Assembly (NCBI GenBank): GCA_024691085.1
Contig: JAILNX010000027.1
Coordinates: 83,769-147,768 of the forward strand
Direction: 5' to 3'
DNA: 64,000 nucleotides
From: Clostridiales bacterium
Lineage (GTDB): Bacteria > Bacillota > Clostridia > Christensenellales > CAG-138
The position numbers and the translations under genes were made by a program. The notes below the pieces were generated by a model, which saw only the letters and a list, made by a program, of their open reading frames with translations, did no database searches and was not told the origin of the DNA. Position 1 is the first letter of the stretch, and every line of letters begins with the position of its first letter. This document shows, in pieces, positions 280 through 49,211 of this stretch.

Positions 280-342
280 ACTGCTGATTGCTAATTGCTA
301 ATTGCTAATTGCTAATTCCTGACTCCTGACTCCTCACTTCAC
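280..342. repeat. Heptamer tandem array A
   Basis: Nine consecutive 7-bp units: actgctg, attgcta four times, attcctg, actcctg, actcctc, acttcac. The array covers the mutS2 stop codon (334-336) and lies between it and the hairpin at 252-271. Same family as arrays at 12754, 29766, 31614, 32869, 34940, 49097 and 49163. Confidence 0.9.
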
Positions 343-2688
343 CGTCACCACGGTCACGCCGTAGTCGCCCTCGCCGTAGTTGCCGTTCCGGAAAGCCTTC
401 ACGCGAGGGTGATTCTTAAGGTAAAGCTGGATGCCGGCGCGGAGCGCGCCCGTGCCCTTGCCGTGGATTATCGAGACCTCGGTGAGCCCCTGGCGCCTGC
501 AGCCGTCGAGGTACCTGTCCACGACGGGCTTCGCGTCCTCGACCATCATGCCCCTTATGTCGAGCTCGAGCCCGACCGTGCTCTCGGGGGAGTATTCGAC
601 CTTGGTGTTCCCCGCCGCCTGCTCCTTCGCCATTATCTCGCGGAGATCGTTGAGCTTCACGTTCAGCTTGATTATTCCGACCTGCACGGGCACCTCGCCG
701 TTTTTGGCCTTGCCGATGACGGTGCCGTCCTTATCGAGCGAAACGACGTGGACGCTCTGACCCGGAGTAACGAACTTCGGCGCCTCGCCATAGGCGGCCT
801 TCTCGTCCTGAGCGGTCTCGTAAAGCTCCTTATCCTTCTCCCTTACGGCGTCGCGCGCCTTCTGGATCGCCCTGTCGGCGGCCCTCTGGTCGATGTTCTT
901 CATGGAGCGGATCTCGTTGACGACGCTCTCGAGCTCGCGCTTGGCGTCGAGGACGATCTTCCTTGCCTCCTCCTTGGCCTTAAGGCGCATCTCGGCCTTG
1001 TCCCTTTCGAACTTCTTAAGCTCCTCGCGCATATCGGCGCGGAGCGCGTCGAGCTCGCGCCTTGCGTTTTCGGCCTCGAGGCGTTCCTTTTCCGCCTTCT
1101 GCTTCTCGTTCTCGGCGCTCGTGAGTACCGACTCGAAATCGACGTTCTCGGTGGATAAAAACTCCCTCGCGCGGTCGATGATGTAATCGCTCATGCCGAG
1201 GCGCTTCGAGATCTCGAAGGCGTTCGACTTGCCGGGTATGCCGATGAACAGGCGGTAGGTCGGGGCGAGGCGGTCGACGTCGAACTCCATCGACGCGTTC
1301 TGCATGCCCTCGTGCGTGAGCGCAAACGCCTTGATCTCGGAATAGTGCGTTGTTGCGGCGGTGCGGCAGTTCCTCGAATGGAGCTCCTCAAGTATGCTCA
1401 TAGCGAGCGCGGCGCCCTCTACGGGATCCGTGCCGGCTCCGAGCTCGTCAAGGAGTATGAGCGAGCGGTCGTCCGCGTTTTCGAGTATCGACACAATGTT
1501 CTTCATGTGGCTCGAGAAGGTGGAGAGGCTCTGCTCGATCGACTGCTCGTCGCCGATGTCCGCCGCGACGTTTTCGAAAATCGCCATCTCTGTGCCGACG
1601 TCCGCGGGGACGAAGAGTCCCGCCTGCGCCATCAGCGTGAAGAGGCCGATCGTCTTTAGGGTGACCGTTTTGCCGCCCGTGTTGGGGCCCGTCACGATGA
1701 GCGTCGTGAAGTCGCCGCCCAGCCACACGTCGATGGGAACGACCTTCTCGCGCGGGATGAGCGGGTGCCTGCCCCTCTTTATCATTATCCTGCCCTCGGA
1801 GTTCAGCTTCGGGCTGACGGCGCGCATATCCTTCGCTAGCTTGGCTTTCGCAAACGAAAGGTCGATCACGCCGAGAGTCATAAGATCCTGATAGATGTCG
1901 TTCGCGGAGGGCTTCAGCATCTCGGTCAGCTCGGTAAGTATGCGCTCGACCTCCGCCGCCTCCTCCATGACCAGCTTCTTGTACTCGTTTCCGAGCTCCA
2001 CGACCGCCGACGGCTCGATGAAGAGCGTCGCGCCCGTGCCCGACTGGTCGTGTATGAGGCCGGGTATGTTCTGGCGGTATTCCTGCTTTACGGGCACGAC
2101 GAAGCGCCCGTTCCTTATCGTCACCAGCGCGTCCTGGAGGTATTTCGAATAGGTCGGCGAGTGGATCATGTCGTTCAGCTTCTGCCTGACCTTTTCGTTC
2201 GCGAGCTTCATCTGCCGCCTTATCCTCGAAAGCGCGGGCGACGCCCCGTCGAAAACCTCGTCCTCGGAAAGGATACAGCGGTTGATCTCGTCCTCGATCG
2301 CGCTGAAGGTCATAAGCCCGCCCGCGAGGTTATAAAGCCCCGGCGTCTTTTCGGACGCGTCATTAGTCAGAAGCTGCTCGCGGCAGACGCGTATCGCCCT
2401 TAAGCACTTCGCGACGGAAAGAAGCTCGCCGCAGCCCAGGTGCAGTACGGCGTTCACCCTTTTTAGCGCGGAGCGCATATCGGGGTAGTCGTCGACCGGG
2501 GACGTCCCCGTCCTTAAAAAGTGCGTTTCCGCCTCCTCGGTGAGCTTGAGCTCCGCGCGCACGTCGTCGGGCTCGTCGAAGGGCTTCAGCGCGTCCGCAA
2601 GCTCGCGGCTCACGCAGCAGCCGCATTTTAAGCGGAGCTCGGCCTTTATCTTGTTGAATTCAAGCGTGTTTAAAACCTTTTCGTTCAT
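334..2688 (-). CDS. mutS2: Endonuclease MutS2
   Basis: 784 aa, normal MutS2 length. MutS2 is an ATPase with a C-terminal Smr nuclease domain; in Firmicutes it acts in recombination control and in rescue of collided ribosomes. Seen: the MutS core with Walker A GPNTGGKT near residue 330, Walker B (LILLDELGAGTDP) about 80 residues later, a long charged coiled coil (roughly 500-640), and a C-terminal Smr domain with LDIRG and HGKGTGALR motifs. The ATG at 2688 is chosen because it overlaps the upstream stop by 4 bp (ATGA) and begins the family N-terminus MNEKVLNTLEFNKIK. The open frame extends further upstream but that part is Arg-rich and antisense-like. Translationally coupled to the U32 gene. 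Confidence 0.96.
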   Translation of the reverse strand: MNEKVLNTLEFNKIKAELRLKCGCCVSRELADALKPFDEPDDVRAELKLTEEAETHFLRTGTSPVDDYPDMRSALKRVNAVLHLGCGELLSVAKCLRAIRVCREQLLTNDASEKTPGLYNLAGGLMTFSAIEDEINRCILSEDEVFDGASPALSRIRRQMKLANEKVRQKLNDMIHSPTYSKYLQDALVTIRNGRFVVPVKQEYRQNIPGLIHDQSGTGATLFIEPSAVVELGNEYKKLVMEEAAEVERILTELTEMLKPSANDIYQDLMTLGVIDLSFAKAKLAKDMRAVSPKLNSEGRIMIKRGRHPLIPREKVVPIDVWLGGDFTTLIVTGPNTGGKTVTLKTIGLFTLMAQAGLFVPADVGTEMAIFENVAADIGDEQSIEQSLSTFSSHMKNIVSILENADDRSLILLDELGAGTDPVEGAALAMSILEELHSRNCRTAATTHYSEIKAFALTHEGMQNASMEFDVDRLAPTYRLFIGIPGKSNAFEISKRLGMSDYIIDRAREFLSTENVDFESVLTSAENEKQKAEKERLEAENARRELDALRADMREELKKFERDKAEMRLKAKEEARKIVLDAKRELESVVNEIRSMKNIDQRAADRAIQKARDAVREKDKELYETAQDEKAAYGEAPKFVTPGQSVHVVSLDKDGTVIGKAKNGEVPVQVGIIKLNVKLNDLREIMAKEQAAGNTKVEYSPESTVGLELDIRGMMVEDAKPVVDRYLDGCRRQGLTEVSIIHGKGTGALRAGIQLYLKNHPRVKAFRNGNYGEGDYGVTVVTVK

Positions 2689-4712: not shown

Positions 4713-4720
4713 TTCTTAAA

Positions 4721-4743
4721 CAAAAGGGGCGTTTCGCCGCCCC
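4721..4743 (-). terminator. Intrinsic terminator between zapA and the U32 gene
   Basis: On the minus strand a GGGGCG/CGCCCC hairpin is followed by TTTTGTTT. It lies after the zapA stop (4765) and just before the U32 start (4712), so it probably attenuates rather than isolates the downstream genes. Confidence 0.65.
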
Positions 4744-4764
4744 ATGGGTACAAGTTTTTTAAGG

Positions 4765-5100: not shown

Positions 5101-5130
5101 ACCCGCACCTCGACATGTTTTTACATTTAT

Positions 5131-5159
5131 ATTCTATCATGCCGAAGGCTCCATTGCAA
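5131..5159 (-). promoter_or_regulatory. Sigma-A promoter of zapA
   Basis: Minus strand TTGCAA (5154-5159), 17-bp spacer, TAGAAT (5131-5136), about 30 bp upstream of the zapA start. Confidence 0.65.
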
Positions 5160-5164
5160 TAAAA

Positions 5165-5303: not shown

Positions 5304-5323
5304 TTTTCAAAAAACGCATGCGG

Positions 5324-5354
5324 GAACAAAGCTCGAAGGAGCTTTCGTTTTTTG
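5324..5354. terminator. Hairpin with T-rich tail downstream of the CDF gene
   Basis: AAAGCTC GAAG GAGCTTT hairpin, followed on the plus strand by CGTTTTTTG. On the minus strand, the direction of the neighbouring genes, the stem is present but the T-run is displaced. It is a plausible but weak end for the peroxide operon. Confidence 0.4.
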
Positions 5355-6535: not shown

Positions 6536-6538
6536 GTT

Positions 6539-8282: not shown

Positions 8283-9665
8283 ATGGATCCTGTTCTTCTG
8301 ATCGATTTTGGCAGTACATACACAAAGGTCACGGCGGTCGATATTGACGAGCCGCGTCTTTTGGGAACAGCAAATTCATACACCACAGTTCAGTCCGACA
8401 TAATGAACGGGCTTGCCGACGCGCTCACACAGCTTGAGAGCGTGACGGGCAGGCTCGATTTTTCTGCCCGTTACGCCTGCTCCTCGGCGGCGGGAGGCTT
8501 AAGGATGCTCGCGAGCGGGCTCGTGCCCGAGCTTACCGCAGAGGCCGCGAAGACCGCGAGTCTCGGCGCCGGAGCGAAGGTCTTAAAGACCTATTCCTTC
8601 AAGCTGACCGAGGACGACGCGGAGGAGATCCGCGCCATCGATCCCGACATATTCCTGCTCGTCGGCGGCACGGACGGCGGCAATTCGGACTGCATCACGC
8701 ACAACGCCCGCGTGCTTAAGGAGATCGGGGGAAGCTACCCCATCATACTCGCAGGCAACCGCAACGCCGCGCACGAGTGCGAGAGGATCTTATCCGGGCG
8801 CGAGGTGCATATCTGCGAGAACGTCATGCCGCGCTTCGGCACGCTCAATATCGAGCCCGTGCAAAAGCAGATCCGCGAGGTGTTTTTAAACCGCATAGTC
8901 CTCGCAAAAGGGCTCACGAAGGCTTCGGAGCTCATCGAGGGAATCATGATGCCGACGCCCAGCGCAGTTATGGACGCAATGAAGCTTCTTGCCGAGGGCA
9001 CCCGGGGTCAGAAGGGTATAGGCGATCTCGTCGCCGTTGACGTGGGCGGCGCGACCACCGACGTTTACTCCGTGGCGGAGGGGCTCCCCGACGATCCCCG
9101 GACGAGTCTTCGCGGGCTGCCCGAGCCCTACATCAAGCGCACGGTCGAGGGCGACATCGGCATGCGCTATTCCATCCGCGGCATAATCGACGCGGCGGGG
9201 CTCGACCGCGTGGCGGAGGCGGCGGGGCTTTCCCCCGAGAGGCTGTCGGAGATCGTCGATATGTTCGCCGAGAACACCGACATGCTGCCCTTCGACGATG
9301 AGACGAAGAGGGCGGACGAGGCGCTTGCGAGCTTTGCGGTGCGCGTTGCTTTAACGAGGCACGCGGGAAGGCTCGAGGAGATATTCGGTCTCGGCGGCTT
9401 AAAGCTCGTGCAGACGGGCAAAAATCTTGTAAATGTGGATAAGTTCATCGTCACCGGCGGTTCGCTCATCCACACCGAGCACACGGGAAGGATCGCTTCC
9501 TACGGCTTCTACGACGAGGAGGATCCCGGTTCCCTGAAGCCGCGCGCATGCGACGTGCTCGTCGACCGCAGTTATATTATCGCCGCAATGGGTCTCTTAA
9601 GCGCATATCATCCCGACGCGGCGCTCACAATTCTTAAGAGGGAGTTAATTGCCGAACGTGCTTAA
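8283..9665 (+). CDS. glmL: Methylaspartate mutase accessory protein GlmL
   Basis: 460 aa. ASKHA-fold ATPase (the MutL of glutamate-mutase operons), thought to be a reactivating chaperone for B12-dependent mutase. The phosphate-1 motif LLIDFGSTYTKVTAVD lies at residues 5-20, an adenosine-type motif (LVGGTDGG) near 130, and a second phosphate motif (VAVDVGGATTDVYSV) near 255. It follows glmS by 17 bp without a strong Shine-Dalgarno, so translation may be coupled. Confidence 0.95.
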   Translation: MDPVLLIDFGSTYTKVTAVDIDEPRLLGTANSYTTVQSDIMNGLADALTQLESVTGRLDFSARYACSSAAGGLRMLASGLVPELTAEAAKTASLGAGAKVLKTYSFKLTEDDAEEIRAIDPDIFLLVGGTDGGNSDCITHNARVLKEIGGSYPIILAGNRNAAHECERILSGREVHICENVMPRFGTLNIEPVQKQIREVFLNRIVLAKGLTKASELIEGIMMPTPSAVMDAMKLLAEGTRGQKGIGDLVAVDVGGATTDVYSVAEGLPDDPRTSLRGLPEPYIKRTVEGDIGMRYSIRGIIDAAGLDRVAEAAGLSPERLSEIVDMFAENTDMLPFDDETKRADEALASFAVRVALTRHAGRLEEIFGLGGLKLVQTGKNLVNVDKFIVTGGSLIHTEHTGRIASYGFYDEEDPGSLKPRACDVLVDRSYIIAAMGLLSAYHPDAALTILKRELIAERA

Positions 9666-9896
9666 TAAGAGCCGGACGGAGACGACCTAAGCGACCGAAG
9701 GGAGCTTGCGAGCCATGCGAGCCGCGCGGGCCAGCGCGTACGCGCCGCGATAGGCGCGGAACCGCGATAAGCCAAGAAAGTAAGGCTGCTCCTGCGAGAC
9801 ATATCCCCGCAGCTGACAGCCTCGGCCGAAAGAAGAACGCAGCTTTTGCTGAACACATAAATAAGATCAAAGATTATTACTTTAAAGGAGTTTTCA
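9666..9896. other. 231-bp gene-free spacer with nested inverted repeats
   Basis: Between glmL and glmE. It holds GC-rich inverted repeats (GCGCGTACGCGC, CCGCGATAGGCGCGG) and a nested stem with an outer AGGCTG/CAGCCT and an inner CTGCG/CGCAG at about 9781-9824. No plausible gene is seen on either strand. The glmE Shine-Dalgarno AAAGGAG is at its end. It could be an RNA processing or attenuation element, or a palindromic repeat. Confidence 0.5.
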
Positions 9897-11351
9897 ATGA
9901 GCAGTCTTCAGAATAAACGGATCCCCGACGATGAGTTCAATTCCATTCGCGAAGAGGTCCTGAAGCAGTGGCCTACCGGCGCCGAGGTCGATCTTGACGA
10001 GGCGATCGCGTTCCACAAGTCCATGCCCGATCACAAGATCTTCTCGAAGAAGCTTATCGACGCGAAGGAAAAGGGCATAACCCTTATACAGCCCCGCGCG
10101 GGCGTCGCGCTGATCGACGCGCATATCGAACTTCTGACCTATCTGCAGGACAAGGGCGAGGCGGACCTTCTGCCCACCACCATCGACAGCTATACCCGTC
10201 AGAACCGCTATCAGGAGGCTGAGAACGGCATTCGCGAGTCCATGAAGGAGCGCCGCAGTATGCTGAACGGCTTCCCGGCGGTCAACCACGGCGTATCGGG
10301 CTGCCGCAGGCTCATCAACGCCCTCAACACCCCGCTCCAGGTGCGTCACGGCACCCCCGACGCGAGGCTCCTGACCGAGATCACCTACGCCGGCGGCTTC
10401 ACCAGCTATGAGGGCGGCGGCATCTCCTATAACCTGCCCTACGCGAAGAACGTTCCGATGGAGAAGACCATACGCGACTGGCAGTACGTCGACAGGCTCA
10501 CCGGCATCTACGAGGAGCGCGGCGTTTCCATCAACCGCGAGCCCTACGGTCCCCTCACCGGCACCCTCGTTCCCGCCTGCATTTCGCACGCTGTCGCGAT
10601 AATCGAGGCGCTCCTCGCCGCCGAGCAGGGCGTCAAGAACATCACCGTCGGCTACGGCCAGTGCGGAAACCTCGTGCAGGACGTCGCCGCGATCCGCGTG
10701 CTTGAGGAGCTCACCAACGAGTACCTCGAGAAGAACGGCTATCACGACGTCTGCGTCACCACCGTATTCCATCAGTGGATGGGCGGCTTCCCCGCCGACG
10801 AAGCGAAGGCTTTCGGCGTTATCAGCTGGGGCTCCGCTACCGCCGCGCTTTCGAAAGCGACCAAGGTCATCGTCAAGACCCCGCACGAGGCCGCGGGCGT
10901 TCCCACCATGGAGGCCAACGCCGAGGGACTTCGCTGCACCAAGCAGGTCATCTCGATGCTCGCCGACCAGGTCTGCACCGCCGCGAACCTCGAGGAGGAG
11001 AAGGAAATGATCCGCATGGAGACCCGCTGCATCGTCGACAAGTGCTTCGAGCTCGGCGAGGGCGACATCGCCGACGGCACCGTTAAGGCGGTCATGACCG
11101 GCGTTCTCGACATCCCCTTCGCTCCCAGCCGCTTCAACGCGGGCAAGATGCTCCCCGCGCGCGACAACGACGGCGCGATCCGCATTCTCGAGATGGGTCA
11201 TCTCCCCTTCACCGACGAGATCAAGGCCTACCACCGCGCGAAGATCGCCGAGAGGGCGAAGGCCGAGAAGCGCAACGCCTCGTTCCAGATGGTCATCGAC
11301 GACGTTTACGCGATCTCGAAGGGCCGTCTGGTCGGCCGTCCCCGCGGCTGA
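9897..11351 (+). CDS. glmE: Glutamate (methylaspartate) mutase large subunit
   Basis: 484 aa, the usual length. Catalytic TIM-barrel subunit; forms the radical carbon-skeleton rearrangement site with GlmS. Recognisable family stretches are [41 protein letters not shown] (Arg in the substrate carboxylate clamp region) and [14 protein letters not shown]. Shine-Dalgarno AAAGGAG lies 9 bp before the ATG. Followed by mal. Confidence 0.97.
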
Positions 11352-11449: not shown

Positions 11450-12697
11450 ATGAAAATCACAAACCTTATCTGCTCCGCAGGCCGCACAGGCTTCTACTTT
11501 GACGATCAGCGCGCCATAAAGGCAGGCGCGCGCTCCGACGGCGCCGCCTACTTCGGCGAGCCCAAGACCGAAGGCTTCACCTCCGTCCGTCAGCCCGGCG
11601 AATCCATCTCCGTCATGCTCGTTCTCGAGGACGGTCAGATCGCGACCGGCGACTGCGCCGCCGTTCAGTATTCCGGCTGCGGCGGACGCGATCCCCTGTT
11701 CCTCGCGAAGGACTTCATTCCCGTCATCGAGAAGTACATTAAGCCCGCCCTCATCGGCCGCGAGGCGGATAATTTCCGCGAGCTCGCGAAGGATCTCGAG
11801 GCCATCACCGTCGACGGCAAGCGCCTCCACACCGCCATCCGCTACGGCATGACGCAGGCCCTCCTCGACGCCGTCGCGAAGGCCACCCACCGCATGATGT
11901 ACGAAGTCGTCGCGGACGAGTACGGCCTCACCTTCGAGGCGAAGCCCCTCGACATCTTCACCCAGTCGGGCGACGACCGCTACACCAATTCCGATAAGAT
12001 GATCATCAAGGGCGCTCAGATCCTCCCCCATGCCCTCATCAACAACGTAAAGACCAAGCTCGGCGAGCACGGCGAGAAGCTCCTTGAGTACGTCAAGTGG
12101 CTGCGCGACCGCGTGCTGCAGTTAAGGACCAGCGAGGACTACAACCCCATTTTCCACATCGACGTTTACGGCACCATCGGCGCCGCCTTCGGCAACGACA
12201 ACTACAAGGCGATGGCCGACTATATGAAGGAGCTCGAGGAGGCCGCGAAGCCCTTCCACCTCCGCATAGAGGGCCCGATGGACGTCGAGGACCGCGAGAA
12301 GCAGATGCTTGCTCTGAAGGCCATCACCAAGGAGCTCGACGACCGCGGCATCAACGTGGAGATCGTAGCCGACGAGTGGTGCAACACCCTCGAGGACATC
12401 AAGTACTTCGCCGACAACAAAGCCGGTCACATGGTCCAGATCAAGACCCCCGACCTCGGCGGCATCAACAACACCATCGAGGCCGTCCTCTACTGCAAGG
12501 AGCGCGGCATCGGCGCCTATCAGGGCGGTACCTGCAACGAGACCGACCGTTCCGCTCAGGTCTGCGTACAGTGCGCCATGGCGACCCGTCCCGATCAGAT
12601 CCTCGCGAAGCCCGGTATGGGCGTTGACGAGGGCTACATGATCGTCTATAACGAGATGCAGAGGATCCTCGCTTACGCGGCGGCTAAGCAGAACTGA
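11450..12697 (+). CDS. mal: Methylaspartate ammonia-lyase
   Basis: 415 aa. Enolase-superfamily enzyme that removes ammonia from L-threo-3-methylaspartate to give mesaconate, step two of the methylaspartate route. Seen: the FHIDVYGTIG segment (catalytic His region), metal-ligand acid residues in the barrel (EGPMDVED and VADEWCN segments), and the general-base Lys in MVQIKTPDLGG near residue 332. Shine-Dalgarno AAAGG precedes the ATG. A terminator at 12716 closes the operon. Genes for the later steps (mesaconase, citramalate lyase) are not in this window. Confidence 0.97.
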   Translation: MKITNLICSAGRTGFYFDDQRAIKAGARSDGAAYFGEPKTEGFTSVRQPGESISVMLVLEDGQIATGDCAAVQYSGCGGRDPLFLAKDFIPVIEKYIKPALIGREADNFRELAKDLEAITVDGKRLHTAIRYGMTQALLDAVAKATHRMMYEVVADEYGLTFEAKPLDIFTQSGDDRYTNSDKMIIKGAQILPHALINNVKTKLGEHGEKLLEYVKWLRDRVLQLRTSEDYNPIFHIDVYGTIGAAFGNDNYKAMADYMKELEEAAKPFHLRIEGPMDVEDREKQMLALKAITKELDDRGINVEIVADEWCNTLEDIKYFADNKAGHMVQIKTPDLGGINNTIEAVLYCKERGIGAYQGGTCNETDRSAQVCVQCAMATRPDQILAKPGMGVDEGYMIVYNEMQRILAYAAAKQN

Positions 12698-12715
12698 TCT
12701 TAACTGAATAACGGC

Positions 12716-12749
12716 AAAAACTCCGCGCCGTTCGGCGCGGAGTTTTTTC
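12716..12749 (+). terminator. Terminator of the glm-mal operon
   Basis: AAAAACTCCGCGCC / GGCGCGGAGTTTTTT hairpin. It has flanking A and T runs, so it works in both directions. Member of the ACTCCGC hairpin family paired with heptamer arrays. Confidence 0.92.
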
Positions 12750-12753
12750 ATTA

Positions 12754-12795
12754 ATTGCTAATTGCTAATTCCTAATTGCCAATTGCTCATTTCCC
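12754..12795. repeat. Heptamer tandem array B
   Basis: Six 7-bp units: attgcta twice, attccta, attgcca, attgctc, atttccc. It lies just after the terminator, which is the reverse of the usual order relative to the plus-strand gene. Read on the minus strand it is array then hairpin, as elsewhere. Confidence 0.85.
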
Positions 12796-18920: not shown

Positions 18921-19212
18921 AAAAAAAGCGGTTTTGGGCGCATTCACATAAGGATACACAGCCTCAAAAGGTATCTTTTCGCGCCGCGCTTCGTTGAAAA
19001 TGCTCGAAAGACTCTCCGAGTATTCCTGCGCTTTTCGCCTTGCGCGGCACAAAAATCTCCTCTTTTGAGACGCTTCGCGGTTTTCGGCGGACATAAAAAA
19101 TACCTGAAGTGCAATTGATTGCACTCCGGGTATTTTGTTTTATCTAAGCCATTTTTCACCGCCGAAAACCTATGTCTCCTTAAGTGAATGCACCCTTGAT
19201 AACCGCTTTTTT
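18921..19212. terminator. Bidirectional terminator split by an insertion
   Basis: The arms AAAAAAAGCGGTT (18921-18933) and AACCGCTTTTTT (19201-19212) are complementary. With the 260-bp element between them removed, plus one copy of TT, they form one compact terminator with loop TTGAT between the convergent phosphodiesterase and greA genes. Confidence 0.75.
18936..19195. mobile_element. MITE-like element, 260 bp
   Basis: Terminal inverted repeats of about 26 bp. The left end starts GGGCGCATTCACATAAGGAT; the right end, reversed, starts GGGTGCATTCACTTAAGGAG. They agree at about 23 of 26 positions. TT occurs on both sides and may be a 2-bp target duplication. Inside are a GGTTTTCGGCGG/CCGCCGAAAACC pair and a hairpin around GTGCAATTGATTGCAC. 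No coding capacity. Confidence 0.75.
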
Positions 19213-29717: not shown

Positions 29718-29738
29718 TTAAAACGCCGTTTCCTTCCC

Positions 29739-29758
29739 GCTTATTAAAGAGCGGGAGC
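29739..29758 (-). terminator. Hairpin between pfk and glsA
   Basis: CCCGCT TATTAA AGAGCGGG. No T-run follows, so perhaps a processing or weak stop site. Next to heptamer array C. Confidence 0.4.
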
Positions 29759-29765: not shown

Positions 29766-29786
29766 ACTCCTCACTCCTCACTCCCG
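29766..29786. repeat. Heptamer tandem array C
   Basis: Three 7-bp units, actcctc, actcctc, actcccg, 10 bp downstream of the pfk stop codon and followed by the hairpin at 29739-29758. Shares units with array A. Confidence 0.75.
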
Positions 29787-31160: not shown

Positions 31161-31604
31161 ATGTTGTACCCGACTATTTTCAATGACAGGCTTTTTGACG
31201 ATCTGTTTGACATGACCTTCCCGACCATGGACGTCGAGAGGAAGCTTTACGGCAAGAACGCCGCCCACGTTATGAGGACGGACGTTCACGAGAACGAGAA
31301 CGGCTTTGAGGTCGATATCGATCTGCCCGGTTTCAAGAAGGACGAGATCAGCCTCTCCCTCGAGAACGGCTGCCTCACCATTACCGCCGCGAAGGGCCTT
31401 GACAAGGACGAGGAGGACAAGCGCGGCCGCCTGATAAGGAGCGAGCGTTACGCCGGCACGATGCAGAGGAGCTTCTACATCGGCAAGAACGTGACCGAGG
31501 ACGAGATCAAGGCGAGGTTCGAGGACGGCGTTCTGAAGCTCACGATCCCCAAGAAGGACGAGAAGAAGCTGCCCGAGAAGAAGACCATAATGATCGAAGG
31601 CTGA
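31161..31604 (+). CDS. Small heat-shock protein, Hsp20/alpha-crystallin family
   Basis: 147 aa. ATP-independent holdase chaperone. Alpha-crystallin domain from about residue 38 (RTDVHENENGFEVDIDLPGF, KKDEISLSLENGCLTITA) to FEDGVLKLTIPK near 130, with an Arg-rich turn (GRLIRSERYAGTMQRSFYI). Shine-Dalgarno AAAGGAGG. HrcA/CIRCE control is inferred from the upstream element. Ends in heptamer array E and a strong terminator. Confidence 0.95.
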   Translation: MLYPTIFNDRLFDDLFDMTFPTMDVERKLYGKNAAHVMRTDVHENENGFEVDIDLPGFKKDEISLSLENGCLTITAAKGLDKDEEDKRGRLIRSERYAGTMQRSFYIGKNVTEDEIKARFEDGVLKLTIPKKDEKKLPEKKTIMIEG

Positions 31605-31613
31605 GAGAGAAAA

Positions 31614-31648
31614 AAAGAATACTTAAGACTTAAAACTTAAGAATCATG
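31614..31648. repeat. Heptamer tandem array E
   Basis: Units aaagaat, acttaag, acttaaa, acttaag, aatcatg between the hsp20 stop (31604) and its terminator. Together with the hairpin it is a near-identical inverted copy of 32836-32906. Confidence 0.85.
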
Positions 31649-31649
31649 G

Positions 31650-31676
31650 AAAAACTCCGCTTCGGCGGAGTTTTTT
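31650..31676 (+). terminator. Terminator of hsp20
   Basis: AAAAACTCCGC TTCG GCGGAGTTTTTT. Stable UUCG-like loop, strong T-run. Confidence 0.93.
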
Positions 31677-31694
31677 CGTTCGGACAGTCATGAT

Positions 31695-31723
31695 TTGAAT
31701 CAAGAACGATAACATGGTATAAT
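31695..31723 (+). promoter_or_regulatory. Promoter of the 31747 lipoprotein gene
   Basis: TTGAAT (31695-31700), 17-bp spacer, TATAAT (31718-31723). Confidence 0.75.
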
Positions 31724-31746
31724 ATCGAGAGGAGGTGTTTTCCCGG

Positions 31747-32226
31747 ATGAGAAAAAACATTGTTGCCTTGCTTTCTTTATTTATGCTTTTGTCCTTGATC
31801 GCCTGTTCAAAGACAACGGCTCCCGACGTTGAACCGACTGCGGCGCCGATCGGCGGCGAGACCGGGAGCCCGTCGGCCCTTCCATCGGAGACTGCTTCGG
31901 CAGATCCTGCGTATACCCCCTCTCCCACCGAGGCCGAACTGTCGGAACAGCCGACGTCATATTTAGGAGCGCTTTCCGATGAGGAAAAGGCGCGGATACT
32001 GGCTTTCGCGGCAGAATGGTATGCCGAGTATTTCTTCGAGTACGAAGTCCTTTCAATGAAGTTCGCCGACGATGACGATTTAGGCTACGACTATTATTCG
32101 CAGTATAAACCGGGCGAGATAATAATACTGCTTGTCGAGACAACCCACGGAGGCCGCGGAGTGTATCGGAAATGCTTTATAACGATATCGGGATCCGGTT
32201 ATGAAGTTATAAACGACGGTTATTGA
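31747..32226 (+). CDS. Hypothetical lipoprotein
   Basis: 159 aa, no family recognised. Signal with lipobox LIAC (Cys near residue 19), a Pro/Thr/Ser linker to about 70, then a small acidic domain with Tyr-rich FAAEWYAEYFFEYEVL and GEIIILLVETTHGGRGVY. ATG 31747 has AGGAGG at good distance; a GTG 12 bp earlier is too close to it. A promoter stands directly upstream. It lies between two inverted copies of the heptamer-hairpin unit. Confidence 0.7.
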   Translation: MRKNIVALLSLFMLLSLIACSKTTAPDVEPTAAPIGGETGSPSALPSETASADPAYTPSPTEAELSEQPTSYLGALSDEEKARILAFAAEWYAEYFFEYEVLSMKFADDDDLGYDYYSQYKPGEIIILLVETTHGGRGVYRKCFITISGSGYEVINDGY

Positions 32227-32262
32227 TCCGTTTGTATATTTTGGCTTTTTCGCAAATTGTGC

Positions 32263-32291
32263 TTGACTTTTATTCGCGCCCGTCGTATAAT
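32263..32291 (+). promoter_or_regulatory. Promoter of tRNA-Gly
   Basis: TTGACT (32263-32268), 17-bp spacer, TATAAT (32286-32291), 33 bp before the tRNA 5' end. Confidence 0.85.
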
Positions 32292-32324
32292 AGCTTTCGT
32301 TCCGAAAGGAAAAACCGATTATTC

Positions 32325-32400
32325 GCGGGAATAGCTCATTTGGTAGAGCGCCGCCTTGCCAAGGCGGAGGTGGCGGGTTCGAGCCCCGTTTCCCGCTCCA
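32325..32400 (+). tRNA. tRNA-Gly (anticodon GCC)
   Basis: 76 nt with encoded CCA. Acceptor GCGGGAA pairs with TTCCCGC, D-loop TAGCTCATTTGGTAGAGC, anticodon loop TTGCCAA with GCC on a CCGCC/GGCGG stem, T-arm GGGTTCGAGCCCC. Own promoter and terminator. Confidence 0.97.
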
Positions 32401-32402
32401 AT

Positions 32403-32435
32403 AACAAAGGAGACAGCAACGCTGTCTCCTTTGTT
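32403..32435 (+). terminator. Terminator of tRNA-Gly
   Basis: AACAAAGGAGACAGC AAC GCTGTCTCCTTTGTT, a perfect 15-bp stem. The outer arm serves as the U-rich tail. Confidence 0.85.
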
Positions 32436-32456
32436 ATTCAAGAGAGATATTGCGAT

Positions 32457-32540
32457 GAACCCCGAATTCGGCTGACGCCGAATTCGTCGATTTCGCTCAC
32501 TCGACCCGGTTTGAACTCAATTAATGCGAAATCGGGGTTC
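32457..32540. repeat. Palindromic repeat-like stem-loop
   Basis: The outer arms GAACCCCGA (32457-32465) and TCGGGGTTC (32532-32540) enclose a perfect GAATTCGGC TGAC GCCGAATTC hairpin and more dyads. No coding sense. Probably a small palindromic intergenic repeat. Confidence 0.6.
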
Positions 32541-32541
32541 A

Positions 32542-32557
32542 GAGCCCCGTTTCCCGC
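32542..32557. repeat. Duplicated tRNA-Gly 3' end (att-like)
   Basis: GAGCCCCGTTTCCCGC repeats exactly the T-arm/acceptor part of tRNA-Gly at 32381-32396, 161 bp downstream. Preceded by GGTTC with one extra A. Such copies are left when an element integrates at a tRNA end. Confidence 0.6.
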
Positions 32558-32560
32558 ATC

Positions 32561-32730
32561 GGGGGAAGGTGTCGGCGCAAGCCGACGGATGAGGGATCCG
32601 GAAAAAGAATCCGGGGCTTTCGCGTCGGTCAGGTGATGCTGCCGCAGTTTGCGTTCGTTCCGCTTTGTGTGTTAAAAGGCAGCAGCCCGGACGCATCCCT
32701 CATCAGTCACCTTCGGTGACAGCTTCCCCC
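32561..32730. mobile_element. 170-bp MITE/ERIC-like palindromic element
   Basis: Left end starts GGGGGAAGGTGTC and later GATGAGGGAT; right end reversed starts GGGGGAAGCTGTC and later GATGAGGGAT. Ends are about 40 bp imperfect inverted repeats with extra hairpins (GTCGGCGCAAGCCGAC, GTCACCTTCGGTGAC). No open frame. This type resembles repeats I associate with gut Clostridia. Confidence 0.7.
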
Positions 32731-32745
32731 AAGGGAAGCCTTTTT
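32722..32745 (+). terminator. Terminator-like hairpin at the right end of the palindromic element
   Basis: GCTTCCC CCAA GGGAAGC then CTTTTT. Confidence 0.6.
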
Positions 32746-32835
32746 GACGCAGCTCTCAATAGTCTCACGAGAATCCGCAGGATCCTCGCCAAGCAAAAGG
32801 CTTGCCTTTTGCGGGAGTCCGCCCCGTGGACTTTT

Positions 32836-32863
32836 AAAAAACTCCGCTCAAGCGGAGTTTTTT
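32836..32863 (-). terminator. Terminator of metG
   Basis: AAAAAACTCCGC TCAA GCGGAGTTTTTT, usable on both strands. On the minus strand it follows the metG stop (32927) and array F. Confidence 0.92.
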
Positions 32864-32868
32864 CCACA

Positions 32869-32910
32869 ATTCTTAAGTTTTAAGTCTTAAGTTTTCATTT
32901 TTCATTTGCC
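32869..32910. repeat. Heptamer tandem array F
   Basis: Six units: attctta, agtttta, agtctta, agttttc, atttttc, atttgcc, between the metG stop and its terminator. Confidence 0.88.
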
Positions 32911-32926
32911 TAAGGTCTGTCGGCTC

Positions 32927-34927
32927 TTACCTTATCAGGTTTCCGCTGCCGATCTCCTTCATGGTGGTGAGCGGTACGACGTCGGCGTCGCCGGGAGTCG
33001 AGGCGCAGAGTATCATGCCCTGCGATTCGATGCCGCACATCTTCCTCGGCGCGAGGTTGTAGACGATGACGACGTTTTTGCCGATAAGCTCAGAGGGGCT
33101 AACCCAGTCCCTTATGCCCGAGAGCACGGTGCGCTTCTCGTTCCCGAGCTCGACCGTTAAGTTATAGAGGTGGTTCGACTTCTTGACCTCGGTGCAGTCT
33201 ATGACCTTCGCGACGCGAAGATCGAGCTTTGCGAAATCGTCATAGGTGATGAGGGGCTTATCGTCCTTCTTCTCCTCCGCGGGCGCGTGTTCGGCGGGAG
33301 CGGGCGTTCCCTCTTCAGCCGCTTTCATAGCGGCGGCCTTCTTCCTCTGCTCCGCGATCATGTTGTCGAGGAACTCCATCTCGGCCTTCGCGTCGATCCT
33401 CGGGAATATCGCTTCGCCCTTCGTGACTACGGTGCCGGCGGGGATGAGCCCGAATTCCTTTACGCTCTCCCAGGTCCTGAGCGCCTCGTCCTTAACGCCG
33501 AGCTGCGCGAACATCTTCGGGCTCGTATTCGGCATGAAGGGCTGTACCGCGATCGCGATGATGCGGAGCGCCTCCGCGAGGTTATAGAGCACCGTGCCGA
33601 GACGGGCCTTCTTCGCCTCGTCCTTCGCGAGCACCCACGGCGCGGTCACGTCGATGTACTTGTTGCATATCGCGATGAGCTTCCATATCTCGGAAAGGGC
33701 GATATGGGGATGGATCTCGTCCATCGCCTTGTCCATGCGCGTAAAGAGCGTCTTCGCGTTCGAGACGACCGGTTCATCCTCCTCGGGCACGGGAGCGGTG
33801 TTTTCGGGGACTTTCCCTTCGAAATACTTGCCTATCATGGCGACCGTGCGGGACAGGAGGTTGCCGAGGTCGTTCGCGAGGTCGGAATTGATCCTCGTGA
33901 TGAGCGTCGCGTTATCGAAATTGCCGTCGTTGCCGAACGGGAACTCGGAGAGCAGGAAATAGCGTACCGCGTCCACGCCGTACCTTTCGACCAGAACGAA
34001 CGGGTCGACGACGTTGCCCTTGGACTTCGACATCTTGTCGCCGTCAAAGAGGAGCCAGCCGTGGCCGTAGATCTTTTTGGGGAGCGGGAGGCCCAGCGCC
34101 ATCAGCATGATCGGCCAGATTATGGTGTGGAACCTGATTATCTCCTTGCCGACGATGTGCACGTCCGCCGGCCAGAACTTCCTGTAAAGGGAGTCGTCGT
34201 CCGTAAGATATCCGATCGCGGAGAGGTAGTTGACGAGCGCGTCCACCCAGACGTAGATGACGTGCCTTTCGTCGAACGGCACGGGCACGCCCCACTTGAA
34301 GGTGCTTCTCGTTACGCAGAGATCCTCGCAGCCGGGAAGCAGGAAGTTGTTGAGCATCTCGTTCGCCCTCGACACGGGCTGTATGAAGTCGGGATTCTCC
34401 CTGATGTACTCGATGAGCCGCGGCGCGTACTTCGAAACGCGGAGGAAGTACGCCTCCTCTTTGGCGAGCTCGGTCTTTCTGCCGCAGTCGGGGCAGACGC
34501 CGCCCGCCTCCTTGAGCTGCGTCTCGGTCCAGAACGCCTCGCACTGGGTGCAGTAATGGCCCTCGTACTCGGACTTGTAGATGTCGCCCTGCTCGTAGAG
34601 CTTTTTGAACACCTTCTGAACGCACTCCATATGATGCTTGTCGGTCGTCCTGATGAAGCCGTCGTTCGAGACGTCCATGAGCTCCCACAGCTTTTTGAAG
34701 CCGTCGGTGATCCTGTCGGCGTACTCCTGCGGAGCGCATCCCGCCTTTTCGGCGTATCTTTCGATCTTCTGACCGTGCTCGTCGGTGCCGGTGAGGAAGA
34801 AGACCTCGTGCCCCGTCATGCGCTTATAGCGCGCGAGGGCGTCGGTGTTGACCGTGCAGTACGTGTGCCCGATATGCGGGTTCGCACTGGGATAATAGAT
34901 CGGTGTTGTGATGTAGTACTTTTCCAT
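32927..34927 (-). CDS. metG: Methionyl-tRNA synthetase
   Basis: 666 aa. Class I synthetase. N-terminus YYITTPIYYPSANPHIGH with the HIGH motif at 18-21; zinc knuckle CTQC...CPDC near 127-147; KMSKS motif in DGDKMSKSKGN near residue 300. An Ala/Glu-rich linker leads to a C-terminal tRNA-binding (Trbp111/EMAP-II) domain (about 565-666: FAKLDLRVAKVIDC, IVYNLAPRKMCGIESQGMIL). This is the long dimeric Firmicute form. The class I LysRS at 51049 carries a related C-terminal domain. Confidence 0.97.
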   Translation of the reverse strand: MEKYYITTPIYYPSANPHIGHTYCTVNTDALARYKRMTGHEVFFLTGTDEHGQKIERYAEKAGCAPQEYADRITDGFKKLWELMDVSNDGFIRTTDKHHMECVQKVFKKLYEQGDIYKSEYEGHYCTQCEAFWTETQLKEAGGVCPDCGRKTELAKEEAYFLRVSKYAPRLIEYIRENPDFIQPVSRANEMLNNFLLPGCEDLCVTRSTFKWGVPVPFDERHVIYVWVDALVNYLSAIGYLTDDDSLYRKFWPADVHIVGKEIIRFHTIIWPIMLMALGLPLPKKIYGHGWLLFDGDKMSKSKGNVVDPFVLVERYGVDAVRYFLLSEFPFGNDGNFDNATLITRINSDLANDLGNLLSRTVAMIGKYFEGKVPENTAPVPEEDEPVVSNAKTLFTRMDKAMDEIHPHIALSEIWKLIAICNKYIDVTAPWVLAKDEAKKARLGTVLYNLAEALRIIAIAVQPFMPNTSPKMFAQLGVKDEALRTWESVKEFGLIPAGTVVTKGEAIFPRIDAKAEMEFLDNMIAEQRKKAAAMKAAEEGTPAPAEHAPAEEKKDDKPLITYDDFAKLDLRVAKVIDCTEVKKSNHLYNLTVELGNEKRTVLSGIRDWVSPSELIGKNVVIVYNLAPRKMCGIESQGMILCASTPGDADVVPLTTMKEIGSGNLIR

Positions 34928-34939
34928 ATGTAAAACCTT

Positions 34940-34981
34940 TCAGCTAATTGCTAATTGCTAATTCCTAATTGCTAATTCTTA
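34940..34981. repeat. Heptamer tandem array D
   Basis: Units tcagcta, attgcta twice, attccta, attgcta, attctta. It fills the gap between the exonuclease stop (34979-34981) and the metG start and includes the stop codon. No hairpin here. Confidence 0.88.
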
Positions 34982-35968
34982 TTCCGCCTTTATCTGCCCG
35001 TGGCCGTGGCGGTAGAGCTGGCGGTTGTCGAGCGCCCACTGGCGTTCGGTGAACTGCCCCGGAGCGACGCCGGAAAGAACGTCGAACATCTCGAACATCC
35101 GGGCGTCGAGCATATCGATATCGGAAACGATCTCCGCCTCGGGGAACATCGGGAACTTGGGCGAGCCGAAATCCGGCTGGCCGTGGTGCGCGAGCAGTAT
35201 GTGCGAAACGAGCGTCGTGAGCTCCTCGGGTATCGAGAGCTCCGCCGCCGCCTGCTCGACCATGCATACGCCCATGTTGATATGCCCCAGAAGCTGACCG
35301 CGCGCCGAGTACGCCGTGGCGATGCCGAGCTCCGAGACCTCAAGCTCCTCGGTCTTCGCGATATCGTGAAGTATCACGCCCGCGTAGACGAGCTCCTCGG
35401 AAAGCTCGGGATAATAGGGCTTGTAGACCTCGACGAGCTTCTTCGCGACCTCGAGCATCGTGCCCGTGTGGAACATGAGCCCGCCGCGCATCGCGTGATG
35501 GAGCCGAAGCGCCGCGGGATAGCTTTCGATCCTGTCCTTCCTTCCGCGCAGGAGATACTGCGTGAGGCGGGCAAGGTCTTCGTCCCTGAACGTGCCGGCG
35601 AAGTCGTAGATCTTTTTGAACGTGGTTTCGCCGTCGACGGGCGAGCTCGATACTATCGCGCTCATGTCGATAACGTCGTCGTCCCTTTTCTGGCGGATGC
35701 GGTCGATCTTGAGCTGCTCAACGTCCTTCCAGACGTTGACCGTGCCCCTGACCTTGATTATGTCGCCGACCGCGAAGGTGCCGTGCGCCGCCGTGGAGTA
35801 ATCCCACAGCTTCGCGTTGACCTCGCCGCCCGCGTCAGCAAGCGTAAAGTCGAGATAATCCGCGCCCTTGATATTGTTTTTGACCGCAACGCTCTTGACT
35901 ATGCAGAAGCCCTGCACCTGCCCGGACTGATTGCTGACATAGTTCGATAAGAGGTTCATCCTGCCCAT
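34979..35968 (-). CDS. YhaM-type 3'-5' exoribonuclease (OB + HD domains)
   Basis: 329 aa. N-terminal OB-fold (about 15-100: SGQVQGFCIVKSVAVKNN, FTLADAGGEVNAKLWD) and C-terminal HD phosphohydrolase domain (LHHAMRGGLMFHTGTML near 155, GVILHDIAKTEEL near 195, SHILLAHHGQPDFGSP near 255), the layout of YhaM/CBF1, a Mn-dependent 3'-5' exonuclease. GAGGTGG 4 bp before the ATG. Upstream of metG on the same strand and separated only by array D, so they are probably co-transcribed. Confidence 0.92.
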   Translation of the reverse strand: MGRMNLLSNYVSNQSGQVQGFCIVKSVAVKNNIKGADYLDFTLADAGGEVNAKLWDYSTAAHGTFAVGDIIKVRGTVNVWKDVEQLKIDRIRQKRDDDVIDMSAIVSSSPVDGETTFKKIYDFAGTFRDEDLARLTQYLLRGRKDRIESYPAALRLHHAMRGGLMFHTGTMLEVAKKLVEVYKPYYPELSEELVYAGVILHDIAKTEELEVSELGIATAYSARGQLLGHINMGVCMVEQAAAELSIPEELTTLVSHILLAHHGQPDFGSPKFPMFPEAEIVSDIDMLDARMFEMFDVLSGVAPGQFTERQWALDNRQLYRHGHGQIKAE

Positions 35969-47175: not shown

Positions 47176-47181
47176 TATAAT
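47153..47181 (+). promoter_or_regulatory. Promoter inside the end of the binding-protein gene
   Basis: TTGCCA (47153-47158), 17-bp spacer, TATAAT (47176-47181). Drives the OB-fold lipoprotein gene separately. Confidence 0.75.
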
Positions 47182-47224
47182 TAGTAATTGTGCGATAATG
47201 CATATTAAAATTCGGAGGATTAAA

Positions 47225-47974: not shown

Positions 47975-47987
47975 TTAAAGCGCACAC

Positions 47988-48022
47988 AAAAGCCCGCTCA
48001 TACGAGCGGGCTTTTCCTTTTT
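47988..48022 (+). terminator. Terminator of the OB-fold lipoprotein gene
   Basis: AAAAGCCCGCTC ATAC GAGCGGGCTTTT, then CCTTTTT. Confidence 0.92.
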
Positions 48023-48040
48023 ACGCCTAAAATAATATAT

Positions 48041-48057
48041 TTTACGATAATCGTAAA
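48041..48057. promoter_or_regulatory. Operator 1 of the DUF2975/XRE pair
   Basis: TTTACGATAATCGTAAA, a 17-bp perfect palindrome apart from the centre base, 7 bp upstream of the -35 box. Core ACGATAATCGT is shared with operator 2. Confidence 0.8.
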
Positions 48058-48064
48058 AAAGGTG

Positions 48065-48093
48065 TTGACAAACGTTAATACCGGGTGTATTAT
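48065..48093 (+). promoter_or_regulatory. Promoter of the DUF2975/XRE pair
   Basis: TTGACA (48065-48070), 17-bp spacer, TATTAT (48088-48093), lying between the two operators. Confidence 0.85.
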
Positions 48094-48104
48094 ATGCCTG
48101 CAAG

Positions 48105-48121
48105 TTAACGATAATCGTTAA
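48105..48121. promoter_or_regulatory. Operator 2 of the DUF2975/XRE pair
   Basis: TTAACGATAATCGTTAA, same core as operator 1, centre-to-centre 64 bp (about six helix turns), downstream of the -10 box. Confidence 0.8.
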
Positions 48122-48151
48122 AAAATTAATGAAAAACTTGGGAGGTACAAA

Positions 48152-48862
48152 ATGAACGCTTCTATCAAGAAAAAGGTGAACGGCATCGGCCTTGCCGGAA
48201 AGATCGTCTCGATCATAATGATCGTCTGCATGGCTCTCGCCTGCTTCGGGCTTTCGGTCGCGACGATATTCTTCGCCGCCATCCCGAAGGACAAGGTCAC
48301 GCTCGACGTGAAGACCGATTTCAGCGTCATGATCAGCAAAGATCTGTTCAAGGACCAGTTCGACAAGATCACCGACGAGGAGATCTCGAAAGCGAATGAG
48401 GAGATGAAAAAGGAGTTCGACTCGGACGGTGACCCGATCGAAATGGAACTTAAAAAGACCGGCGAAGGCGTCACCGCGTCCGGCAAAACGGATAATTACA
48501 CCCTTTCCGCTTCGCAGCTCTTCCCCATATGCCTGTCCGGTCTGATCCGCTGCGCGGCGATACTGGTGATATTCGTCTTCCTGCTCCGTCTTTCCGACGC
48601 CTTCCGCACCTGCGATACTCCCTTTGACGAGGGTGTGATCAAAAAGATGATGACCTTCGCGTGGGTGCTCCTCGGCGGCGCGGTGCTTATGGGCTTAAGC
48701 TTCACCGGCTCGATCAGCGGCATGGGCATCTACAGCAAGCTCGGCGGGGTCAGTTACTCCGTGCGCTTTACTCCCGTTCTCGTCGCTCTCATCGTCCTCT
48801 TCCTCTCTTCCGTATTCCGCTACGGCGCGAAGCTCCAGAAGGAATCCGACGAAACTCTGTGA
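48152..48862 (+). CDS. DUF2975-like membrane protein
   Basis: 236 aa. Four predicted membrane helices (about 15-42, 125-145, 165-185, 205-225). A charged extracytoplasmic loop separates the first and second (KDLFKDQFDKITDEEISKAN). RTCDTPFDEGVIKKM is like the DUF2975 loop between helices 2 and 3. Such proteins are usually paired with a small XRE protein, as here (8 bp downstream). Function unknown. Confidence 0.72.
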   Translation: MNASIKKKVNGIGLAGKIVSIIMIVCMALACFGLSVATIFFAAIPKDKVTLDVKTDFSVMISKDLFKDQFDKITDEEISKANEEMKKEFDSDGDPIEMELKKTGEGVTASGKTDNYTLSASQLFPICLSGLIRCAAILVIFVFLLRLSDAFRTCDTPFDEGVIKKMMTFAWVLLGGAVLMGLSFTGSISGMGIYSKLGGVSYSVRFTPVLVALIVLFLSSVFRYGAKLQKESDETL

Positions 48863-48870
48863 GGCAGGCT

Positions 48871-49101
48871 ATGGGCAAGATAATCTTAAGGCTCGACCGC
48901 GTTATGGCCGACCGCAAGATGAGCCTGAACGAGCTTTCCGAAAAGGTCGGCGTCGCGAACGTGAACCTTTCCAAACTCAAGAACGGGCACATCTCCGCCG
49001 TGCGCTTCTCCACCCTCTCCGCGATCTGCGAGGCGCTTAACTGCCAGCCGGGAGACCTGCTGGAGTACGATCCCTCTGCCGAGGGATCGAATGAAGAATG
49101 A
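48871..49101 (+). CDS. Small XRE-family HTH regulator (YozG type)
   Basis: 76 aa, almost only an HTH: IILRLDRVMADRKMSLNELS, the helix-turn-helix VGVANVNLSKLKNG and LSAICEALNCQPGDLLEYDP. Typical of the Cro/CI-type YozG family. Probably represses the promoter at 48065 through the paired palindromes; this is inferred from the layout. Confidence 0.9.
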   Translation: MGKIILRLDRVMADRKMSLNELSEKVGVANVNLSKLKNGHISAVRFSTLSAICEALNCQPGDLLEYDPSAEGSNEE

Positions 49102-49138
49102 AGACTTAAAACTTAAAAAAGAAAAATGAAAGTGAGAA
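49097..49138. repeat. Heptamer tandem array G1
   Basis: Units aatgaag, acttaaa twice, aaagaaa, aatgaaa, gtgagaa between the XRE stop codon (which it includes) and the shared hairpin at 49136. Confidence 0.85.
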
Positions 49139-49158
49139 CTCCGCCTGAGGCGGAGTTC
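49136..49158. terminator. Shared terminator hairpin of converging genes
   Basis: GAACTCCGCC TGA GGCGGAGTTC, then TTACG. Member of the ACTCCGC family; the T-run is short. Confidence 0.7.
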
Positions 49159-49162
49159 TTAC

Positions 49163-49211
49163 GTTCATTATTAATAATTCATTCTTCAGTCTTCAGTTTT
49201 CATTTTTTAAT
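49163..49211. repeat. Heptamer tandem array G2
   Basis: Units gttcatt, attaata, attcatt, cttcagt twice, tttcatt, ttttaat, ending over the stop codon of the minus-strand lipoprotein gene (49207-49209). Confidence 0.85.

Follow-up and report, generated by a model that had tools for sequence, protein, structure and literature searches.

The 64,000-nucleotide stretch analyzed here (the window; positions 83,769 to 147,768 of contig JAILNX010000027.1 from a Clostridiales bacterium) carries short arrays of 7-bp units that lie mostly behind stop codons, several of them next to hairpins with the stem ACTCCGC...GCGGAGT. A first-pass annotation of the sequence had described eight such arrays at seven places (280-342, 12754-12795, 29766-29786, 31614-31648, 32869-32910, 34940-34981, 49097-49138, and 49163-49211), with the order stop codon, heptamers, and then, where present, a hairpin at six of them. 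Direct reading confirms all eight arrays and this order, the exception being 12754-12795, which lies beyond its hairpin, and it also confirms the four ACTCCGC...GCGGAGT hairpins and the degenerate form of this hairpin at 252-271 (Table 1). Tandem Repeats Finder recovered all eight arrays, several of them split in two pieces. In an autocorrelation scan of the window, the sole period-7 tracts were seven of the eight arrays; 29766-29786 was missed because its three units are too short.

Our own sample consisted of the window plus other contigs of the host genome (1.98 Mb, 94% complete), for a total of 855,867 bp, of which 64,000 are N and are held by the pieces of contig C23. These contigs were picked for having pattern matches, and thus the array densities given here are not genome averages. 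Gene models came from a simple home-made caller rather than from an annotation. The comparison genomes were those of a sister species (G012), of three members of the host genus (G005, G009, and G011), and of another genus (G030), and the array sets comprised 47 own arrays (43 in an earlier set) and 59 from G030. The earlier proposal to compare period 7 with other periods was carried out on the own sample, and period 7 was singled out among noncoding tracts, with 39 tracts, 36 of them noncoding, against 0 to 3 noncoding tracts for each other period, 14 and 21 excepted. The window and the first 391,867 bp had given 37 tracts, 35 of them noncoding (other noncoding periods 0 to 2, with the same exceptions), and the further 400,000 bp (including the 64,000 N) yielded few extra arrays given that their spread is uneven, with 1 array in 200 kb of C8 versus 34 in 304 kb from the window and pieces of C34, C32, and C38. 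The pattern TNANTNN repeated four times had 60 matches in the 1.98-Mb genome, overlapping ones counted, where about 0.2 are expected at equal base frequencies; a backward-pattern control was void because this pattern is identical when reversed. The arrays cluster strongly by contig despite much the same composition, and the best dnaA match is on C12.

The units follow a common code. A 7-column model, obtained unsupervised and without prior assumption from 43 arrays and then again from 47, reads T, N, A, not-A, T, N, pyrimidine (TNANTNY) on one strand and RNANTNA on the complementary strand, which is the purine-rich strand in 46 of 47 arrays. Own units are mostly of the TAATTGC, TCACTCC, TAAGTCT, and TCATTTT types, with the TAATCCC type in only some arrays, and one 26-base string of units is identical at three places, on C8, C12, and C31. 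The same code with other preferred units occurs in congeners (TAATTGC in G009, TCATTAT in G005 and G011), and among the matches listed it was found in at least 26 of 61 genomes, the host included; given that the code itself was the query, this search shows its presence and not the absence of other codes.

Many of these arrays are accompanied by a mirrored copy of themselves. We scanned with the array model up to 130 nt from each array, at a threshold set to the 95% point of array-free gaps. A mirrored arm was detected on the inner side of 21 of the 47 own arrays and 41 of the 59 G030 arrays, compared to 0/47 and 1/59 on the outer side and to 14 of 267 own and 9 of 162 G030 array-free gaps (about 5% by choice of the threshold). 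All neighboring array pairs no more than 120 bp apart face each other as mirror images, 7 of 7 in the host and 10 of 10 in G030. Hairpins of at least seven pairs show the same asymmetry, being present on the inner side of 22/47 own and 25/59 G030 arrays versus 5/47 and 9/59 on the outer side, and in 63/267 and 36/162 array-free gaps, respectively. A substantial share of the arrays probably represents complete or incomplete copies of small, imperfect palindromes that are dispersed and lie directly behind stop codons. Such a palindrome appears to consist of two heptad arms, the second a mirror image of the first, on either side of a core with one or two hairpins, together about 60 to 165 bp long. 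This reading is suggested by four features of the sequence, namely, the multiple copies, the mirrored arms, the proximity of stop codons in the host genome, and, at one orthologous site, a right arm rewritten in period 7 beside a core that was kept.

The cores recur from place to place. The ACTCCGC hairpin is found at nine places in the sample, at eight of which arms are clear on one or both sides; the ninth has short remnants only. A palindrome model built from four full copies matched 15 own places, those four included, and four places in sister stretches, and it gave three weak matches in G030. The largest own cluster of dispersed repeats comprises 21 gaps, 19 of which bear arrays, and in the three largest G030 clusters 19 of 21, 7 of 10, and 7 of 8 gaps bear arrays. 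When the first G030 cluster was aligned, about 20 rows had an inner hairpin sequence and heptad arms in common, and one further row was a tRNA stretch. The eight copies of the third cluster likewise have an inner hairpin sequence and heptad arms in common, and in the G030 family of 10 a variable loop lies between conserved arms. As in miniature inverted-repeat transposable elements (MITEs), the elements are short, multicopy, and dispersed, with 46 two-armed examples of 62 to 165 bp (14 own, 32 in G030), and they have terminal inverted repeats in the form of the mirrored arms counted above, although their ends are not fixed. The first-pass view that arrays are linked to hairpins is supported by the mirrored arms and shared cores; its picture of a stand-alone 3'-end feature joined to separate hairpins is not, given that many arrays are palindrome arms. 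An Rfam search of the window and four other stretches at the gathering cutoff gave nothing on the arrays; one of the hits elsewhere, a Gut-1 RNA match at L039 1289-1370, is right at the gathering score.

In the window, the most complete element is the one at 49087-49213, which folds as one long hairpin (-47.5 kcal/mol, z -8.4) and whose palindrome, 49091-49207, has counterparts on C32 (84% identity over 117 columns) and C23 (82% over 115 columns). Two half-elements, 31611-31676 and 32836-32902, form an inverted repeat with 89.6% identity over 67 columns. In the longest array, at the end of mutS2, the plus-strand units drift through TGACTGC, TGATTGC, TAATTGC, TAATTCC, and TGACTCC.

Table 1. Heptad arrays and hairpins of the window, ordered by position; the palindrome model is the one built from four full copies.
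Feature	Position	Strand	Context
Degenerate hairpin CTCCGCCC TGC GGGCGGGAG	252..271	n/a	Direct reading
Longest window array	272..345	-	Includes MutS2 stop codon
Hairpin core ACTCCGC	12717..12746	n/a	Behind methylaspartate ammonia-lyase gene 11450-12697; palindrome model matches 12703-12791
Heptad arm beyond hairpin	12747..12793	-	Plus-strand units TAATTGC; exception to after-stop order
Hairpin TCCCGCT...AGCGGGA	29735..29756	n/a	Beyond array 29766-29786
Three-unit array	29766..29786	-	Behind phosphofructokinase stop codon; drifted form at same place in sister species
Single heptad arm	31617..31648	+	12 bp behind stop codon of Hsp20 gene 31164-31604
Hairpin core AAAACTCCGC...GCGGAGTTTT	31651..31674	n/a	Palindrome model matches 31612-31681
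Hairpin core AAAACTCCGC...GCGGAGTTTT	32838..32861	n/a	Palindrome model matches 32836-32909
Single heptad arm	32865..32910	-	Behind stop codon of methionyl-tRNA synthetase gene 32927-34927 (-)
Array without hairpin	34935..34985	-	Between HD-domain gene stop codon and methionyl-tRNA synthetase gene
Left heptad arm	49087..49132	+	Includes stop codon of helix-turn-helix (HTH) gene 48871-49101
Hairpin core AGAACTCCGCC...GGCGGAGTTCT	49135..49159	n/a	
Right, mirrored heptad arm	49167..49213	-	Includes stop codon of gene 49207-50844 (-)

The placement after stop codons holds in the host genome. Arrays were found at the stop end of 41 of 714 genes compared to the start end of 11 of 722 (P = 1.5e-5), which bears out the enrichment proposed in the first pass, and array-bearing gaps made up 13 of 73 convergent, 23 of 231 tandem, and 2 of 93 divergent gaps. 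The rule is not universal, given that the excess in G030 is not significant (31/476 stop versus 20/473 start ends, P = 0.15) and that arrays in many phyla also lie beside start codons. In the set of 43 own arrays, the gene on the expected side ends toward the array in 33 and does not in 10. Among stop-adjacent arrays the purine strand is sense to the gene in 33 and antisense in 13 own cases (P = 0.0045) and sense in 25 and antisense in 12 G030 cases (P = 0.047), short convergent gaps being counted on both sides in this tally. A replication-strand bias is an unlikely cause of the orientation because both orientations are found in convergent gaps. A facing sense stop is present at -40 to +60 bp for 33/47 own and 24/59 G030 arrays, and the array includes this stop codon in 23 and 18 of them, respectively. 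In these arrays, the edge sits at the stop end of the free gap (Kolmogorov-Smirnov P = 5e-16 for 28 own values and 2e-40 for 24 G030 values), with P values that are too favorable because arrays more than 60 bp from a stop were excluded beforehand. Two-armed elements also occupy tandem gaps, as do 6 of 14 in the host and 23 of the 31 in G030 that have both neighbors, and most of the G030 tandem-gap elements span from about the stop codon to 5 to 65 bp before the next start.

Comparison with the sister species, with which the window is largely syntenic, points to turnover of the arrays. Across 96 syntenic neighboring gene pairs, a strict array is present in three own gaps, and for two of these the sister scores as well; the sister also scores at three gaps where the host lacks a strict array, the own gap being above the threshold in two of these three. 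At C34:61778, the ACTCCGCC core is common to both genomes and the right flanks are similar, the units of the right arm differ, and the left arm of the sister is hardly recognizable; the first-pass statement that the period is kept while the sequence changes thus holds at one orthologous site, where the right arm was rewritten in period 7. At C34:48599, the right arm has been retained, together with a related core. The plain TAATTGC-type array at 34940 corresponds in the sister to a GGAGTGA-type array with a mirrored part and a hairpin-like center, and the leader of the next gene is conserved between the two genomes. For the arrays at 280, 12754, 31614, 32869, and 49097/49163, the sister has no equivalent immediately at the corresponding stop, although an element lies slightly further downstream of its mutS2; the arrays at 31614, 32869, and 49163 adjoin genes without a sister ortholog at that place. 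Protein ends compared by eye are the same in both species for MutS2 and differ by one or two residues for the HD and HTH proteins. Two further observations concern array pairs: in the sister, the arms of two adjacent arrays point apart (L107 12609-12771), and in G009 two near-identical TAATTGC-type arrays with starts 125 bp apart (L114 9918-9971 and 10043-10089) look as if the array-holding unit was duplicated.

We also considered whether the pairing of arms is maintained by compensatory change or arm-to-arm copying, which was unsupported within the one G030 family tested. Across loci, the arms of one locus are alike (permutation P = 1e-4 in G030, 0.02 in the host), but within this family arms of the same copy agreed at 18.5 of 28 positions and arms of different copies at 17.7 (P = 0.10; loose pattern with 233 matches and 14 pairs, with the plainly false pair C2:1369 still counted). 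The likeness across loci may therefore reflect family membership only.

The palindromes may have spread as MITE-like parasitic DNA and would persist behind stop codons if insertion is harmless there. Slippage and recombination among a few unit types could account for the turnover of the arms, and cores with A and T tracts, such as those at 31651 and 32838, might serve as two-way intrinsic terminators. The simplest reading would be a parasitic or neutral element with a core able to end transcription both ways.

Several results weigh against this interpretation. No mirrored arm was detectable at 26 of the 47 own arrays, and neither a mirrored arm nor a hairpin was present at 17 of them (14 of 59 in G030). 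In the aligned G030 copies the outer ends are not fixed and the arm lengths vary, and among own arrays those of the TAATTGC and TCACTCC types either have a different core or lack one. Arrays are found in only 1, 0, and 0 gaps of the own repeat clusters that comprise 6, 5, and 3 gaps, respectively, and dispersed repeats are therefore not always heptad elements. Target-site duplication was looked for and could not be established: flank repeats of at least 6 were seen at 2 of 14 own elements compared to 6 of 182 mismatched pairs and at 0 of 32 G030 elements compared to 32 of 992, with element ends only roughly located. The Y1_Tnp family (PF01797) had no match in the host genome or the sister, other transposase families not having been searched, and three matches in G030; mobilization by Y1 transposases, as for repetitive extragenic palindromic (REP) elements, was set aside on the lack of a PF01797 match in the host. 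A terminator scan of 31500-35100 listed neither of the ACTCCGC hairpins there, and thus a terminator function rests on reading of the sequence.

A further point against comes from a scan of named bacterial genomes for ACTKAAR repeated three times, which gave at least 119 stretches. The 80 listed loci belong to Planctomycetes, Bacteroidetes, Acidobacteria, Verrucomicrobia, Desulfobacterales, Gammaproteobacteria, Chloroflexi, Cyanobacteria, Clostridia, and others. Among their 87 arrays, 8 are within simple open reading frames and the rest hug starts as well as stops, with a same-strand neighbor on the 5' side in 50 of 70 and on the 3' side in 47 of 78. A mirrored copy (at least 15 of 21 bases, within 160 nt) was present on the outer side of 24 of 85 and on the inner side of 3 of 85, opposite to what we observed in this genus; control windows 600 nt away gave 2 of 75. 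Direct copies numbered 10 outer and 8 inner (n = 85). The mirrored copies give a preliminary indication that inverted pairing extends beyond this genus.

Among the alternatives, an origin of the arrays in place, through 7-base replication slippage that begins at a stop codon or terminator and is tolerated there, appears rather unlikely but explains several observations. Core-less arrays, several of them in operons, the varying arm lengths, the different unit types of the orthologous arrays at 34940, and the frequent inclusion of the stop codon in the array are all in its favor, and it would account for hairpin pairing through convergent genes that share one terminator. It does not account for the inner sequence common to about 20 and 8 G030 copies, for the ACTCCGC core with clear arms at eight of its nine places, for the two-armed elements in tandem gaps, where one arm faces a start, or for the 26-base string identical on C8, C12, and C31. 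A role of the heptads as repeated binding sites for a regulator of DNA- or RNA-binding type is, in our view, very unlikely. The invariant T, A, and T columns, separated by more variable ones, would suit such sites, and related proposals have been published for Beggiatoaceae TAACTGA repeats and for heptanucleotide sites in Geobacter (PMC4679880, PMC2700814), but the neighbors in the window (MutS2, phosphofructokinase, Hsp20, and methionyl-tRNA synthetase) have no common theme and the preferred units vary among species of the genus. Selection of heptads as fail-safe stop codons, in which three units would close all frames after a leaky stop given that most units hold a stop and that 7 is a multiple of 3 plus one, is highly improbable and disfavored, its support being mixed and weak: the position after stops, the orientation, column frequencies under which the coding strand of most units has TTA plus purine or TGA, and more frames closed than in base-shuffled arrays (2.09 versus 1.63 own, 1.71 versus 1.47 G030) or, in G030, than on the opposite strand (0.78) speak for it, but the own opposite strand is about equal (2.04 versus 2.09), and real arrays close three frames within 24 nt less often than arrays with columns permuted and period kept (28% versus 41% own, 17% versus 27% G030), so that the excess is tied to base content and period, with no sign of a unit arranged for stops.

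The remark in the first pass that no link between heptamer arrays and 3' ends was known in Clostridia needs to be set beside work on Xanthomonas, for which a link of heptamers to stop codons and inverted pairs is already published (PMC4692102). The GGGAATC and GGGGAYT heptamers of Xanthomonas and Nostoc are described in the accessible parts of that account as intergenic, heterogeneous GGGANTN units that are scarce between divergent genes, G-rich, and G-quadruplex forming; in Xanthomonas they lie behind stop codons and in inverted pairs, with 70 (Xcc) and 75 (Xac) close convergent pairs, and few pairs are found in Nostoc (PMC4692102). The arrays of our host likewise lie behind stop codons and in convergent inverted pairs, but a GGG(G) tract per unit is not a feature of most of their units, and they have a repeated hairpin core, of which those parts of the account give no instance; its authors generally saw no association with mobile elements (PMC4692102). 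The pneumococcal SPRITE, RUP, and BOX repeats are small, dispersed stem-loop repeats enriched between convergent genes; SPRITE is terminator-like, lies near gene ends, and has AAAA/TTTT ends, its target duplication is not established, and the module number of BOX varies, according to the available portion of the report (PMC3049150). The gap distribution of the host arrays is SPRITE-like, their terminator likeness being judged from sequence only; the drifting heptad arms at the ends of the host elements have no description in that portion (PMC3049150). REPINs resemble the host elements as dispersed, extragenic, hairpin-forming inverted pairs of short repeats, but the passages seen tie them to RAYT transposases (PMC3116915), whereas the host genome has no PF01797 match at 94% completeness. 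The BrickBuilt MITE of Porphyromonas also has tandem repeats inside, of 23 nt as opposed to the 7-nt arm repeats here, as far as its accessible description goes (PMC4596501). The TAACTGA repeats of Beggiatoaceae are intergenic direct heptamers that also occur in cyanobacteria and Bacteroidetes, Microcystis often mixing in other heptamers; unlike the host arrays, those of the Maribeggiatoa genome are reported, in the part of the paper at hand, to be mostly just upstream of start codons, with related heptamers rare (PMC4679880). Five tandem heptanucleotides occur in an alignment of Geobacter metallireducens sites, looping between strands, which differ from ours in being regulator binding sites predicted by annotation, with no stop-codon link in the consulted portion (PMC2700814). 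In the literature searched, mostly without subscription journals, we found no account in which heptamer arrays form the arms of dispersed elements that have a conserved core.

Reading arrays as palindrome arms suggests, in a form that can be tested, where at least some of the unexplained 7-base repeats of many bacteria could come from. If many heptamers are such arms, then a mirrored arm, a core, a mobilizing enzyme, and strain-level turnover of units become things to seek. It is conceivable, though distinctly unlikely, that the abundance of intergenic heptamers is the footprint of a single widespread mode of making foldback-like palindromes in many phyla, in which arms are written and rewritten in 7-base steps with T, A, and T fixed and the rest free, independently of the core.

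Other features of the window were noted in addition to the arrays. The protein encoded at 31747-32223 was considered as part of a possible carrier element between the half-elements (31611-32910); Pfam yielded one match, below the cutoff, and among 61 genomes it had one full-length relative (G001), one good partial relative (G013), and a match of any kind in 21, short and weak apart from those two. A tRNA gene lies at 32325-32397 between the Hsp20 and methionyl-tRNA synthetase genes, a stretch that is far shorter in the sister. A second dispersed repeat without heptads, 32561-32743 (GGAAGGTGTCGGCG... to ...CGGTGACAGCTTCCCC), has a counterpart on C32 (87% over 183 columns), and the adjoining 32353-32556 matches part of C34:77230-78334 at 71%. 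Two intergenic stretches without arrays are also repeated: 9636-9926 is a member of the five-gap repeat cluster, and 18934-19196 (263 bp) is 96% identical to a C38 stretch. Gene 49207-50844 on the minus strand, which has a weak, subthreshold LapA match only and was not found at this place in the sister, has many partial relatives in the genus, some of them adjoining arrays on C32.

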